Virus record (IMG/VR): IMGVR_UViG_3300044617_000517
Span: 1-28,851 of that record
Length of the DNA: 28,851 nucleotides
Origin: a virus
Reading direction: 5' to 3' (one strand)
The notes below the pieces were generated by a model. That model saw only the letters and a list, made by a program, of their open reading frames with translations. It was not told the DNA's origin and did no database searches. A program made the position numbers and the translations under genes. Positions within the stretch are counted from its first letter, which is position 1, and each line of letters begins with the position of its first letter. Positions 18,008 to 27,493 of the stretch are shown one piece after another.

Positions 18008-18015
18008 TATTTATT
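18008..18015 (-). promoter_or_regulatory. Candidate late promoter AATAAATA
   Basis: The minus strand reads AATAAATA followed by TAATTC, ending 22 bases before the nucleotidyltransferase ATG and overlapping the epimerase stop codon. One mismatch to TATAAATA. AT-rich surroundings make chance matches likely. Confidence 0.35.
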
Positions 18016-19054
18016 TTTTTAATTGGGAGTTGATCCAATTATACGTTTTTTCAATACCTTCTTCTAACGTCATGCTATAATCCCATCCCAGTTCTTTACG
18101 AATCAAATCATTGTTGGAGTTACGACCACGAACACCCAAAGGTCCATCGATATGGTTTGTTTGAATAGTTTTTCCAGCAACTTTCGCAGCAGTAGATACA
18201 AGTTGATTGATAGTTACCATTTCTTCCGAACCAATATTAACTGGTCCAATAAAGTTACTATCCATCATTCTACGAGTTGCTTCAATACATTCATCAATAT
18301 AAAGGAATGAACGAGTTTGCTTACCATCTCCCCACACATCAATTACTCCTTCAATTCCTTCAATTTCTGCAACTTTACGACAAATTGCCGCTGGTGCTTT
18401 CTCTCTTCCACCTTCCCAGGTTCCTTCGGGACCGAAAATATTGTGGTAACGAGCAACCCTAACTGGAATACCATAATTGCGATGATAGGCAAAATACAGT
18501 CTCTCTGAAAAAAGTTTTTCCCATCCATATTCACTATCAGGATTTGCAGGATACGCAGACTCTTCACGACAATCAGGATTGTCAGGATCAAGTTGATTAT
18601 GCTCAGGATACATGCAAGCAGAACCAGAATAGAATATCTTGGTTACATTCTTACCAAGAAAATCATTAAACTTTCTTACCGACTCAAGAACATTCAAATT
18701 AATCGAAACTGAGTTATGCATGATGTCTGCATCATTCTCACCAGTGAAAACAAAACCTGCTCCACCCATATCAGCGGCAAACTGATAAATCTCATCAAAT
18801 GCTTGAAGATATCGTGAGGGAACAAAATTATAAAAGTTTCCTCTATCACCTTTGTATTGAATGACTCGTTCTACAAAGGTCACATCTCGCAGATCTCCAA
18901 TAACAAATTCATTTGCTTCTGTATCAGAGTATTCTGGATATTTAAGATCTACGCCACGAACCCAATATCCCTCTTCTCGCAGTCTTTTTACCATGTGACT
19001 TCCAATGAAACCACCAGCACCCAGAACAAGTGCTTTCTTTACATATTGTCCCAT
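18011..19054 (-). CDS. GDP-mannose 3,5-epimerase
   Basis: A 347-aa extended SDR that matches plant-type GME closely. Motifs are GAGGFIGSH (12-20), FAADMGGAGFVFT, SGSACMYPE, EYGWEKLFSERL, GTWEGGREKAP, GDGKQTRSF and GVRGRNSNND. The catalytic residues fall at S145, C147, Y176, K180 and K219, each two positions from Arabidopsis GME S143, C145, Y174, K178 and K217. It should convert GDP-D-mannose to GDP-L-galactose or GDP-L-gulose. I chose the ATG at 19054; the frame extends further but the upstream part is leader and terminator. It has its own sigma-70 promoter and heads the sugar operon. Confidence 0.92.
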   Translation of the reverse strand: MGQYVKKALVLGAGGFIGSHMVKRLREEGYWVRGVDLKYPEYSDTEANEFVIGDLRDVTFVERVIQYKGDRGNFYNFVPSRYLQAFDEIYQFAADMGGAGFVFTGENDADIMHNSVSINLNVLESVRKFNDFLGKNVTKIFYSGSACMYPEHNQLDPDNPDCREESAYPANPDSEYGWEKLFSERLYFAYHRNYGIPVRVARYHNIFGPEGTWEGGREKAPAAICRKVAEIEGIEGVIDVWGDGKQTRSFLYIDECIEATRRMMDSNFIGPVNIGSEEMVTINQLVSTAAKVAGKTIQTNHIDGPLGVRGRNSNNDLIRKELGWDYSMTLEEGIEKTYNWINSQLKK

Positions 19055-19079
19055 AAACAACAAAAATCCTTTAGTATGT

Positions 19080-19108
19080 ATTATACAAAAAAAGATGGGT
19101 TTATGCAA
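19080..19108 (-). promoter_or_regulatory. Sigma-70 promoter of the GME-led sugar operon
   Basis: TTGCAT (19103-19108), 17-base spacer, TATAAT (19080-19085) on the minus strand, about 25 bases before the GME start. The -35 lies partly in the loop of the terminator at 19087-19116. Confidence 0.75.
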
Positions 19109-19119: not shown

Positions 19120-19233
19120 TTATTCAGGCTCGCCACCAATTCTTTGTCTGGAAATTGGAAACCAGGCGGGAGAGAGTCCCATCCGCACCACTTGCTTTTT
19201 TATGGAGAAAGCAAGAAACCAAATGAGGGTCAA
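19120..19233 (-). other. Spacer with stacked inverted repeats and a possible 37-aa frame
   Basis: The minus strand has a TTG-started frame (LTLIWFLAFS...RIGGEPE) with GGTGGTGGAG just upstream, ending at the terminator. The same stretch holds several small hairpins: CTTGCTTT with AAAGCAAG around 19186-19215, GGGA-GAGAG-TCCC, and CTGG with CCAG. I cannot decide between a small membrane peptide and a structured RNA. Confidence 0.3.
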
Positions 19234-25546: not shown

Positions 25547-25551
25547 TAAGT

Positions 25552-25622
25552 GGGCAATATCGGATTCGAACCAATGACTTACTGCTTGTAAGGCAGCCAC
25601 TCTACCGCTGAGTTAATCGCCC
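25552..25622 (-). tRNA. tRNA-Val (TAC)
   Basis: 71 nt. Acceptor GGGCGAT pairs with ATTGCCC, anticodon arm GCTGC-CTTACAA-GCAGT gives TAC, T arm ATTGG-TTCGAAT-CCGAT. No TTGACA-type promoter is seen directly upstream; it probably follows the oxygenase transcript. Confidence 0.92.
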
Positions 25623-25636
25623 AAAAAAAAAAAAAA
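25623..25636 (-). repeat. T14 homopolymer between oxygenase stop and tRNA-Val
   Basis: Fourteen T residues on the minus strand fill the whole gap between the stop codon (25637) and the tRNA 5' end (25622). No hairpin precedes it, so it is not a usual terminator. Confidence 0.9.
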
Positions 25637-26245
25637 TTAATTTATTAAAAATTGAGTAATGCAGAATCTTCCAAGTTTTTTATTTAAATCTTCATCATTC
25701 ATAGTTATTTTATCTACTGAGTGAAGTATATTAGATGGAAATATTATGCACTTATTATTTTCAACTTCTATATCTATTTTACGACCTTTATGTATTAAAG
25801 ACAAATTTCCACCATGAAACTTTTTTGGTGACTTAAAAAACCAAGTTAAACAAGTAGATATAGCATTGTCTTGATGTGGTTCATAGTAGTCTCCATTTTC
25901 ATAATATGAAATTAAAGTAGTATCTCTTTCACATCTAAATGTGTTAAAAAACCAAGAATCTGAAGTTGGAAATATTTCATCATAGTAATCAAAAATTTTT
26001 CTATTTACAGAAAGAATATTAGATAATTTTCTTTCTGTGTAAGTAGAATCCAAAAATAAAGAATTATTTCTTTTTAATATTTTATCATCAGAATTTCTTG
26101 CAGGAGCAGATTCATTTAAATCTAAAAATTTGTGTGAGTAACACAGAAAATTCAATTCCTCCCAGATAAGATTTAATTCATAATCATCATATAAATTTTT
26201 TATTACTATAAAAGGAAAAGAATCGTTAAAATGTGCTATATCCAT
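25637..26245 (-). CDS. 2OG-Fe(II) dioxygenase
   Basis: A 202-aa enzyme with the double-stranded beta-helix iron site H124-x-D126 in YEPHQDNAIS and H175 in SNILHSVDKI, and the 2-oxoglutarate-binding R193 in GRFCITQF. GGNLSL and CIIFPS are usual around the core. Such enzymes hydroxylate proteins (prolyl hydroxylase type) or nucleic acids, using O2 and 2-oxoglutarate. T4-like cyanophages carry several such genes of unknown target. The ATG at 26245 has no ribosome-binding site; a GTG at 26284 lies in a hairpin and is less likely. Confidence 0.87.
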   Translation of the reverse strand: MDIAHFNDSFPFIVIKNLYDDYELNLIWEELNFLCYSHKFLDLNESAPARNSDDKILKRNNSLFLDSTYTERKLSNILSVNRKIFDYYDEIFPTSDSWFFNTFRCERDTTLISYYENGDYYEPHQDNAISTCLTWFFKSPKKFHGGNLSLIHKGRKIDIEVENNKCIIFPSNILHSVDKITMNDEDLNKKLGRFCITQFLIN

Positions 26246-26265
26246 TATAAATTTTAATGTAGAAA

Positions 26266-26285
26266 GGTGATTAGTGCCAATCACC
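26266..26285 (-). other. Perfect hairpin in oxygenase leader
   Basis: GGTGATT, loop GGCACT, AATCACC on the minus strand (7-bp stem), then CTTTCT. Too few T residues for a sure terminator; may end the tRNA-Asn read-through or shape the oxygenase leader. Confidence 0.5.
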
Positions 26286-26467
26286 TACAGAAGACACTTT
26301 CTGCGATTTTCACCGTATTAGAGGACGGTGATAAGAGAAAACACCAAACCTTATTCTTCCTGTTTTCAGGAACGCACCAAATGGGTTGGGAGACTCTAGA
26401 GATTTTACCTCCGAAGTTTGTCCAGCATTTTCAATTTGAAAGAATCGGACATTTCCAATCCTTTCAA
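26286..26467 (-). ncRNA. Multi-hairpin untranslated segment after tRNA-Asn (candidate stable RNA)
   Basis: About 180 bases with no convincing gene. On the minus strand it holds TGTCC...GGACA enclosing TTTCA-AAT-TGAAA, then CCTG-AAAA-CAGG and CACCGT with ACGGTG, followed by the 7-bp hairpin at 26266. T4 has stable RNAs C and D of unknown role in its tRNA cluster, so an analogous RNA is plausible. The fold is read by eye only. Confidence 0.35.
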
Positions 26468-26539
26468 CTCCACAACCTGGATTCGAACCAGGGACCAAGT
26501 GATTAACAGTCACCGACTCTACCGCTGAGCTATTGTGGA
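26468..26539 (-). tRNA. tRNA-Asn (GTT)
   Basis: 72 nt. Acceptor TCCACAA pairs with TTGTGGA, anticodon arm GGTGA-CTGTTAA-TCACT gives GTT, T arm CCTGG-TTCGAAT-CCAGG. Confidence 0.94.
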
Positions 26540-26559
26540 ATAAGAACCCGAAGATTCAG

Positions 26560-26631
26560 AGCGGGGTATCGGAATCGAACCGACGACATCTAACTTGGAA
26601 GGATAGCGTTCTACCGCTGAACTAACCCCGC
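26560..26631 (-). tRNA. tRNA-Gly (TCC)
   Basis: 72 nt. Acceptor GCGGGGT pairs with ACCCCGC, loop CTTCCAA gives TCC, T arm GTCGG-TTCGATT-CCGAT. The anticodon stem has one T-T mismatch. Co-transcribed with tRNA-Asn, 20 bases apart. Confidence 0.9.
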
Positions 26632-26641
26632 ATATGAGACA

Positions 26642-26670
26642 ATCATAAACTATTTTAGTTTGATTGTCAA
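26642..26670 (-). promoter_or_regulatory. Sigma-70 promoter of the Gly-Asn tRNA pair
   Basis: TTGACA (26665-26670), 17-base spacer, TATGAT (26642-26647). The -35 starts 2 bases past the 3' end of tRNA-Arg. Confidence 0.85.
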
Positions 26671-26671
26671 G

Positions 26672-26745
26672 CGTTCCGAGAGGGACTTGAACCCCCGACC
26701 AACTGCTTAGAAGGCAGATGCTCTATCCAACTGAGCTATCGGAAC
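26672..26745 (-). tRNA. tRNA-Arg (TCT)
   Basis: 74 nt. Acceptor GTTCCGA pairs with TCGGAAC, anticodon arm TCTGC-CTTCTAA-GCAGT gives TCT (reads AGA), T arm CGGGG-TTCAAGT-CCCTC. Confidence 0.93.
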
Positions 26746-26753
26746 ATTGGACA

Positions 26754-26782
26754 ATCATACTATATCTAGTCAGGATTGTCAA
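26754..26782 (-). promoter_or_regulatory. Sigma-70 promoter of tRNA-Arg
   Basis: TTGACA (26777-26782), 17-base spacer, TATGAT (26754-26759), with the same CGCTTGACAATC and TATGATTGTC context as the Gly-Asn promoter. Confidence 0.85.
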
Positions 26783-26783
26783 G

Positions 26784-26870
26784 CGGAGAGAAAGGGATTT
26801 GAACCCTTGGTGAGGTTACCCCCACACAGACTTTCCAGGTCTGCACCTTAAACCACTCGGTCATCTCTCC
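26784..26870 (-). tRNA. tRNA-Ser (GGA)
   Basis: 87 nt with long variable arm. Acceptor GGAGAGA, anticodon arm CAGAC-CTGGAAA-GTCTG gives GGA, T arm AAGGG-TTCAAAT-CCCTT. It follows tRNA-Tyr after 3 bases. Confidence 0.94.
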
Positions 26871-26873
26871 AGG

Positions 26874-26955
26874 TGGGCAGGGAGGGATTTGAACCCCCGT
26901 AGGCAGAGCCAGCGGATTTACAGTCCGCCTCCATTAACCACTCGGACACCTACCC
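26874..26955 (-). tRNA. tRNA-Tyr (GTA)
   Basis: 82 nt with long variable arm. Acceptor GGGTAGG pairs with CCTGCCC, anticodon arm GCGGA-CTGTAAA-TCCGC gives GTA, T arm GGGGG-TTCAAAT-CCCTC. It starts 3 bases after the candidate structured RNA. Confidence 0.93.
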
Positions 26956-26958
26956 ATG

Positions 26959-27042
26959 ATGGACACTGACCTGATGGTTACTCTTTCTGCGGAGGGAGGC
27001 GTCAGTTGTTTATATCCGAGCAAGCACCTTGCTGGAGTCCAT
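26959..27042 (-). ncRNA. Candidate three-way-junction RNA upstream of tRNA-Tyr
   Basis: 84 nt with three perfect 6-bp helices: P1 ATGGAC (27037-27042) with GTCCAT (26959-26964); P2 AGCAAG-GTG-CTTGCT (27019-27033); P3 ACTGAC (27001-27006) with GTCAGT (26965-26970). P1 and P3 abut on one strand. The promoter at 27049-27077 would start transcription at about 27042, the first base of P1. No frame of note covers it. It may be a stable RNA like T4 RNA C or D, or a structured tRNA leader cut off by RNase P. Confidence 0.55.
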
Positions 27043-27048
27043 ATGATA

Positions 27049-27077
27049 ATAATATCACTGTTTGGGGCAGTCGTCAA
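27049..27077 (-). promoter_or_regulatory. Sigma-70 promoter of the structured RNA-Tyr-Ser unit
   Basis: TTGACG (27072-27077), 17-base spacer, TATTAT (27049-27054), overlapping the end of the 134-aa gene. Confidence 0.78.
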
Positions 27078-27459
27078 CCCAGGGAGCACACAATCTCATT
27101 TCACCTCCAAGAACTGATTGGGCATAAGATCCATCTGGTGGTTTCTCTGAGTATCGTGGTGAAGGTATGCTAACCTTTCCATCGTCTCCTGTCAAGCGTT
27201 CATACTCTGCGATTGCTGCATCAACGTCTCTTGTAACTCTTCTTTCTACTTTGTTAGGATCTTGAATAAAAATCTCGTTAAGAATAGTTTGCGGGAAATA
27301 TTTTCTTTGAACTTCATCCAATAAGTCCCATAATCCATTTTCTGATACTCCAGTGCATTGTGAGAGTGCTGCAATAAGAGTCGATAATACAATACTTAGT
27401 ATTATAAGTTGTTTTTTATCTGGTTTCTTTTTACCAAATTGAAAATTAAAATGAGGCAT
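27055..27459 (-). CDS. Membrane-anchored protein, 134 aa
   Basis: A 134-aa protein with a basic start (MPHFNFQFGKKKPDKK), one membrane helix (about 17-35, QLIILSIVLSTLIAALSQC) and an outer domain containing ENGLWDLLDEVQRKYFPQ, VTRDVDAAIAEYERLTG and a Cys pair near the end (LCAPWVDDCPKQ). Not recognised. I use the ATG at 27459, since a late-type box overlaps the alternative ATG at 27486. Only the tail lysozyme gene, 13 bases beyond that box, lies upstream, so a virion, lysis or envelope role is possible. Confidence 0.7.
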   Translation of the reverse strand: MPHFNFQFGKKKPDKKQLIILSIVLSTLIAALSQCTGVSENGLWDLLDEVQRKYFPQTILNEIFIQDPNKVERRVTRDVDAAIAEYERLTGDDGKVSIPSPRYSEKPPDGSYAQSVLGGEMRLCAPWVDDCPKQ

Positions 27460-27485
27460 AAGGGGAGGTCTGCAGCACTCCCCCA

Positions 27486-27493
27486 TATTTATT
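27486..27493 (-). promoter_or_regulatory. Candidate late promoter AATAAATA with leader hairpin
   Basis: AATAAATA on the minus strand, 26 bases before the ATG at 27459. The leader that follows contains the inverted repeat GGGGAG...CTCCCC just before the start codon. Confidence 0.5.

Follow-up and report, generated by a model that had tools for sequence, protein, structure and literature searches.

A conserved three-way-junction RNA of cyanophages, most often found in tRNA arrays

Introduction

The tRNA arrays of phages may carry RNAs that are not tRNAs, and why they do so is an open question, as is the function of the best-known pair of such RNAs, C and D of phage T4, which a 2022 transcriptome study still gives as unknown (PMC9697503). 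Theta ribozymes, which are hepatitis delta virus (HDV)-like, are a further kind of small RNA found against phage tRNAs (PMC10879173), and for cyanophages the RNAs wcaG, manA, PhotoRC-II, glnA and CfrI are named in PMC2864571, PMC9602691 and PMC9964418. Here we describe an RNA element of 84 nucleotides (nt) that lies immediately upstream of tRNA-Tyr in a cyanophage genome fragment, the 28,851-base virus record IMGVR_UViG_3300044617_000517 of IMG/VR, referred to below as the window. The homologues of the window are Kyanoviridae, e.g. S-SRM01 and DSL-LC02/03, and it has ten tRNAs on the minus strand. The element belongs to a family, here called family A, whose members are probably genes in their own right for a small structured cyanophage RNA. 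Loci retrieved in this analysis are labelled with L-numbers (e.g. L214).

Structure and covariation

A preliminary description of the window had proposed eighteen base pairs in three helices, and all of these (AUGGAC/GUCCAU, AGCAAG/CUUGCU and ACUGAC/GUCAGU) are present at 27042 to 26959 on the minus strand; the sequence and coordinates given for the element were correct, as were the 3 bases (26958-26956) said to separate it from tRNA-Tyr. Loss of the pairing among relatives had been set beforehand as one result by which the proposal would fall, and the pairing proved to be retained in homologues. For this an alignment of 36 distinct family members was scored at 22 pairs, with shuffles and slid helices as controls. 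Pairing was found in 97.0% of cells, against 87.0% in shuffles, with double-sided changes at 14 of the 22 pairs (6.7 in shuffles) and 79 compensatory cells (23 in shuffles), and the covariation score was 0.308, compared with 0.121 for shuffles and no more than 0.057 for slid controls; no single shuffle or slid control reached the values of the alignment. RNAalifold, unprompted, recovers the same helices from the alignment. The fold of the element is conserved by evolution, with four helices supported, and because compensatory changes occur in all four it is the RNA that has been under selection, although several pairs of the P3 core are invariant and so outside the reach of covariation.

The alignment also amends the fold in a number of places. 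The outer P3 pair as first drawn (27006-26965) exists in the letters of the window but fails in 15 of 21 homologues; the true pair skips one bulged A and therefore joins 27007 to 26965, and in this form it holds in all 21, as G-C or A-U. Across the 36 sequences it is GC in 21, AU in 10, UA in 4 and GU in 1, which is the strongest single covariation signal. P2 is longer than was proposed by the addition of UCC/GGA, and a fourth helix, P3b, had been missed (26994-26992 with 26983-26981, showing U-A to G-C covariation). The innermost P1 pair (27037-26964) is not retained across the family: by inspection, this pair of the tRNA type gives way to an extra P2 pair (A-U or G-C) in the other types, upstream of protein genes, and the exchange is a one-step shift of the junction.

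Folding energy was rejected as evidence. The element of the window alone folds at -22.2 kcal/mol with a z score of -1.44, which is not significant as 16 of 200 shuffles were as good, and four divergent members have z scores of -0.7 to +0.4. Though energetically unremarkable, these four fold into essentially the same junction, and L251 and L229, two of the most divergent members, form it unaided when folded singly.

Conservation is concentrated in unpaired blocks, with GCCUCC of the P3 internal loop 100% conserved, the P2 loop 99% and the P3b loop 94%, and with the flanks outside the element variable (57% mean identity). Such invariant blocks, surrounded by helices that covary, point to a binding core, in which the fold would present GCCUCC opposite UA-CCA--AGG together with the GAAA of P3b and the GUG loop of P2. 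That GCCUCCC does not vary is no artefact of the search, because a pattern of the 3' half that lacks it retrieves the same loci. The invariant CCUCC resembles the anti-Shine-Dalgarno sequence of 16S rRNA. The P2 loop (GGUG) might form a pseudoknot with CGCC in the P3 loop, a possibility on which a single one-sided change, in L250, bears.

Distribution of the family

Eighty loci related by the open reading frame (ORF) of 143 amino acids (aa) that lies upstream of the tRNA operon were retrieved, and the sequence 3' of the ORF was inspected in each. Near relatives of the window have the element, as do L006-L014 and L032, and many others lack it. Four DNA patterns, partly independent and covering different parts of the element, were then scanned against IMG/VR and yielded 18 stretches (P3 loop), 40 (P2 only), 54 (J2/3 with the 5' side of P3) and 58 (P3 internal loop, one being a chance match), and a fifth, of the 3' half alone, gave 56, every one of them already in the family. 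The patterns converge on nearly the same loci and therefore the family is closed at this search sensitivity, with about 58 IMG/VR contigs, from which the 36 distinct sequences were aligned, and with one model match per record in every record that carries it. L247 matched a pattern and was rejected as a member on its model E value of 0.83.

No Rfam 15 family, whether wcaG, manA, PhotoRC-I or -II, glnA, a ribozyme or tRNA, credibly matches the element in cmscan at E up to 10, which covered 25550-27490 of the window, L249 for the hli type and L232 for the phosphoesterase type. The element was not found by blastn against 50,697 GenBank phage records, where in one search the coding part alone matched, nor was there a credible covariance-model match in the 19 phage records searched; a match of 14.6 bits in S-CBS4 was judged to be chance. 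Bacterial copies were also sought, and four pattern matches in GTDB fail the model and are chance, this pattern being specific to the tRNA type, with the hli and phosphoesterase types and the full model not searched in hosts. The open-access literature searched holds no description of the RNA and, as far as could be tested, the family is previously undescribed.

It is apparent that the carriers are not of one lineage. Four large contigs with family A encode a T4-like gp23, the terminase of L236 is 57% identical over 98% to that of the Synechococcus siphovirus S-CBS4, and the primase of L229 is 54% identical over 99% to that of Synechococcus phage S-EIVl. Judged by these genes, the carriers belong to three unrelated kinds of cyanophage, namely T4-like cyanomyoviruses, relatives of S-CBS4 and relatives of S-EIVl, with their hosts presumed from those of the relatives.

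Genomic contexts

In 15 of the 42 distinct contexts of the family the element has a tRNA on each side; in 9 it immediately precedes a tRNA, in 6 it immediately follows one, and in 12 no tRNA is found within 25 nt. Two of the latter end at a contig edge and two have a tRNA 41-45 nt downstream, and the others lie 5' of a phosphoesterase gene (L232, L234, L236 and L239; PHROG 547) or of a gene, hli, for a 40-aa protein with the motif of high-light-inducible proteins (the L245-L252 group), for which Pfam gives a weak match, under the cut-off, to chlorophyll a/b binding proteins (E 7e-4). The element is always on the tRNA strand, no opposite-strand tRNA being found within 40 nt of it. Its tRNA neighbours vary from context to context (Tyr, Ser, Met, Gln, Leu, Pro and Ile), so the RNA does not serve one particular tRNA.

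In copies with a tRNA on each side, P1 adjoins the tRNA ends by its outer arms, with junctions of 0-5 nt, and in the arrays read in detail the remaining gaps between tRNAs are mostly 0-4 nt too. A precise empty site is provided by S-PM2, in which tRNA-Ser(GGA) and tRNA-Met are separated by TT, 2 nt; L214 and L217 have 85-86 nt at this point, running from P1 arm to P1 arm, and the flanking tRNA sequence is identical. Coding potential was considered and rejected: in the phosphoesterase type an in-frame N-terminal extension runs through the RNA, and in the tRNA type this is closed by a TGA stop.

The promoter in the window

The promoter TTGACG-17-TATTAT that had been predicted upstream of the element is located at 27077-27049, with 27042, the first base of the RNA, 7 nt past the -10 box. 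Within homologous loci a TTGAC..TATAAT pair at the end of the ORF is conserved ahead of either the RNA or a tRNA. In those loci in which a tRNA directly follows the ORF and there is no -10 box, the -35 is usually altered (L004 ttaatg, L015 ttttag, L038 cccaga, L036 taaacg), and in L004, L015, L024, L028, L036, L038 and L040 the loss of the -10 before the first tRNA tends to accompany a change of the -35 within codons of the ORF, as though both boxes came and went together. The comparison of these loci supports a real promoter whose use would not depend on the element. The link between promoter and RNA stands for the window, but it is only one of several contexts for the family, and the coincidence of the transcription start with the 5' end of the RNA is explained by the RNA occupying the first tRNA slot of the operon.

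Table 1. Coordinates of the element, its parts and its neighbours in the window
Feature	Position	Strand	Evidence or remark
Whole family-A RNA of 84 nt: three-way junction plus helix P3b	26959..27042	-	Model matches in other phages, E about 1e-26 to 1e-33
P1 5' arm AUGGAC, pairing with 26964-26959 GUCCAU	27037..27042	-	Double-sided changes at 3 of 4 P1 pairs counted
P2 hairpin UCC-AGCAAG-GUG-CUUGCU-C-GGA, loop GUG nearly invariant	27015..27036	-	Double-sided changes at 8 of 9 pairs
J2/3 strand UAUAAAC, UAAA core invariant	27008..27014	-	Alignment
P3 5' arm: A27007-U26965, A27006 bulged, CUGAC with 26970-26966 GUCAG	27001..27007	-	
P3 internal loop, 5' side GCCUCC, invariant, anti-Shine-Dalgarno-like CCUCC inside	26995..27000	-	100% conserved
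P3b hairpin CUC-CGCAGAAA-GAG	26981..26994	-	Middle pair U-A in 20, G-C in 16 sequences
P3 internal loop, 3' side UAACCAUCAG, conserved	26971..26980	-	Alignment
-35 box TTGACG, within 3' end of 143-aa ORF	27072..27077	-	-35 and -10 tend to be retained or lost together in homologous loci
-10 box TATTAT, TG extension (TGATATTAT)	27049..27054	-	
143-aa ORF, PHROG 3316 (function unknown), upstream of tRNA operon	27055..27486	-	
tRNA-Tyr(GUA), first tRNA downstream of element	26872..26955	-	tRNA prediction
Remaining operon: tRNA-Ser(GGA), Arg(UCU), Gly(UCC), Asn(GUU)	26467..26870	-	

What the RNA may do

The reading that we favour, and hold to be probable from the comparison of sequences, is that of a small RNA gene that stands alone and behaves as a cassette, most often placed in a tRNA array where one tRNA would otherwise be. 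In the window the RNA would be the first product of the tRNA operon, with the transcript predicted to start at, or within 1-2 bases of, P1, and a cut by RNase P at 26955/26956 would then free an RNA of roughly 87 nt with its ends closed by P1. Between two tRNAs the maturation of the upstream 3' end and of the downstream 5' end would free an RNA of about 85-89 nt; such release would follow from general tRNA processing. The invariant core most likely binds a molecule of the host, whether a protein, a ribosomal or other RNA, or a metabolite, because unrelated phages that share only their type of host carry the same core. An action in cis is possible in those loci (hli, phosphoesterase) where an mRNA begins with the module. 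The sequences themselves show the fold and its covariation, the distribution and contexts of the family, the empty site and the conservation of the promoter; excision, stability, a host partner and action in trans are what we infer for the family.

A number of points weigh against a free small RNA. Family-A RNA is known here from DNA alone, and that it would be more stable than ordinary leader fragments is presumed; no target of it was found; in four loci it overlaps the start codon of the phosphoesterase gene, suggesting a cis role there; and the hli loci carry it in the 5' untranslated region (UTR). A bolder form of the proposal, which we think unlikely, is of a viral RNA that acts in trans and is passed among unrelated cyanophages as a cassette of tRNA arrays. 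Its partner would be some conserved component of the host, possibly the machinery of translation or the ribosome-binding sites of mRNA, contacted through the CCUCC loop, and in some phages the module would have been captured as an mRNA leader controlling a metabolic gene. Action of CCUCC on ribosome-binding sites is speculation.

It is also possible, if somewhat unlikely, that the family is a cis-acting module of the riboswitch or protein-binding type, the core of which binds a ligand and controls the stability, translation or processing of the transcript that hosts it. Invariant internal loops amid freely covarying helices are typical of aptamers, and cyanophages have leaders of a similar sort in the wcaG and manA RNAs (PMC2864571). 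The position in the 5' UTR of hli and phosphoesterase genes fits this, and because the AUG of the phosphoesterase type is paired in P1 and its only Shine-Dalgarno-like AGG is within P3, a cis effect is likely in that type. However, the start codon is occluded in the phosphoesterase type only: hli has its own Shine-Dalgarno sequence about 25 nt downstream of P1, the tRNA contexts have no start codon, and a classical riboswitch is disfavoured because there is no shared expression platform. Nor was a consistent 5' UTR position or a coherent gene set found, as the element also stands inside arrays, after the last tRNA of an array and beside many unrelated genes. This diversity of context counts too against the suggestion, made in the preliminary description, of a 5' leader, which would be dedicated to controlling how the tRNA-Tyr operon is matured or expressed. 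The element of the window, like that of its closest relatives, is indeed placed exactly between promoter and tRNA-Tyr, but most homologues are elsewhere (the next gene is tRNA-Ser in L084, Ser and Met flank it in L083, it follows the last tRNA in L221 and there is no tRNA in L234), and many relatives have the same promoter with a tRNA directly after. As a function of the family the leader is contradicted by copies that have tRNAs on both sides, that follow the last tRNA, or that precede protein genes where there is no tRNA, and we regard it as very improbable.

A self-cleaving ribozyme, or another processing signal that frees tRNA ends in the manner of the theta ribozymes, is improbable as well. 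Its conserved unpaired core, and the way in which it abuts tRNA ends as the tRNA-associated theta ribozymes do (PMC10879173), are what such an RNA might have. Yet no Rfam ribozyme, HDV-like ones included, is matched at E up to 10, and the three-way junction backed by covariation is not the HDV-like nested pseudoknot, cleaved no more than 5 nt from the 3' end of a tRNA, that is expected of a theta ribozyme. The bases that border P1 on the outside lack the conservation needed for a cleavage site, and S-PM2 has the same array without the element. Theta ribozymes are moreover 3' of tRNAs, where many copies of family A are not, some being 5' of the first tRNA and others far from any. Scarcely probable at all is a site that works as DNA, such as a target of recombination or homing, or a degenerate tRNA with no RNA function. 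The gain and loss of the element in tRNA arrays is cassette-like, and the T4 array contains the homing endonuclease gene segB, but the compensatory changes in all four helices contradict a DNA site, and neither fold nor sequence is tRNA-like, the three-way junction having no arm of the T or anticodon kind and going unrecognised as a tRNA by ARAGORN and Rfam.

Other RNA-like elements

The tRNA regions of these phages contain other candidate RNAs. Cassette C, of about 66 nt, was seen in L056, L060, L063 and L099-L153 and has a hairpin, GTTGAGAGATCAAC, and a likely H-type pseudoknot (CACTCC / GTAGGTTC / GGAGTG / GAACCTAC). A predicted tRNA-Arg(UCU) starts within about 1 nt downstream in 32 of its 35 distinct copies, and many have a TATAAT-like box just upstream. 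It is also present in S-SKS1, in SynMITS9220M01 and S-SCSM2R, both of which have it 9 nt upstream of tRNA-Pro, and, as a weaker match, in ACG-2014f. Cassette B has a core of TAAAAGGAGCATGGG(C/A)ACC, a variable hairpin and GGAGATACCGCACCTGCC, and occurs in L021, L023, L030, L033, L079, L104-L107 and L154-L200; its 35 distinct copies comprise 16 before, 4 between and 3 after tRNAs, and 12 without a tRNA nearby, of which at least one (L180) looks like chance. Neither cassette has a match in Rfam. Insert D, of about 75 nt (AGGCAGCGGGGGTCCAAACTCCG...GGGAGGTCCC) with possible stems, follows the end of the ORF in L066 and L072, in the same promoter-proximal slot.

Within the window, the 199 nt after tRNA-Asn (26268-26466, minus strand) are predicted to fold strongly (z -3.44, equalled by none of the shuffles) and are 87% identical to unannotated DNA of S-SRM01; they are possibly another stable RNA. 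Two tRNA spacers, 26754-26782 and 26642-26670 on the minus strand, have a TTGACA-17-TATGAT promoter inside an inverted repeat, GACAATC...GATTGTC, and similar TTGACA-17-TATAAT spacers occur in relatives, e.g. L034. From its sequence such a spacer may double as a promoter and as a hairpin after the upstream tRNA. Away from the operon, a wcaG RNA (RF01761, 98.7 bits) is found at 19122-19223 on the minus strand, directly upstream of an ORF (18011-19108) like NAD-dependent epimerases and GDP-mannose dehydratases.

Significance and comparison with known systems

For the question of why tRNA arrays carry such RNAs, family A offers a compact RNA with a structure backed by covariation, an invariant core and natural presence and absence in closely related arrays, as at the empty site of S-PM2. 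Together with its spread over three phage lineages with Synechococcus-infecting relatives, this makes the question experimentally tractable. The two further cassettes beside tRNAs suggest that the tRNA operons of cyanophages generally carry small structured RNAs that are missed by Rfam and by tRNA finders.

The wcaG, manA, PhotoRC-II and glnA RNAs are, like family A, cyanophage RNAs with a conserved structure that lie in possible 5' UTRs, among them those of high-light-induced and photosynthesis genes, and in the portions available of PMC2864571 and PMC9602691 they are not described as units of tRNA arrays; they differ from it in sequence and structure, with no Rfam match at the element. CfrI of S-PM2 is likewise a cyanophage non-coding RNA, but it is antisense to psbA (PMC9602691), whereas family A is intergenic, on the tRNA strand, in the contexts read. 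The theta ribozymes of gut phages, which are also small structured RNAs abutting phage tRNAs (PMC10879173), have an HDV-like fold and the 3' side of the tRNA as their place, in contrast to a three-way junction on either side of a tRNA in cyanophages.

The comparison with RNAs C and D of T4 (species 1 and 2 RNA), to which the preliminary description had likened the element as a stable RNA, holds as an analogy though not as homology to rnaC or rnaD, the tRNA region of T4 having given the covariance model (R2) no match up to an E value of 10. RNAs C and D are longer, at 139 and 119 nt against 84, and they adjoin tRNA-Arg at the 3' end of a single array. Family A, in contrast, takes many positions and occurs also in phages that are not T4-like. 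Nevertheless both are small non-tRNA RNAs that in T4-like phages lie within the tRNA cluster a few nt from tRNAs, and family A, which covaries as a unit of its own and is joined almost flush to the tRNAs of its arrays, has the arrangement of C and D, in a tRNA cluster, on the same strand and with a spacing of a few nt that would permit release by tRNA maturation.
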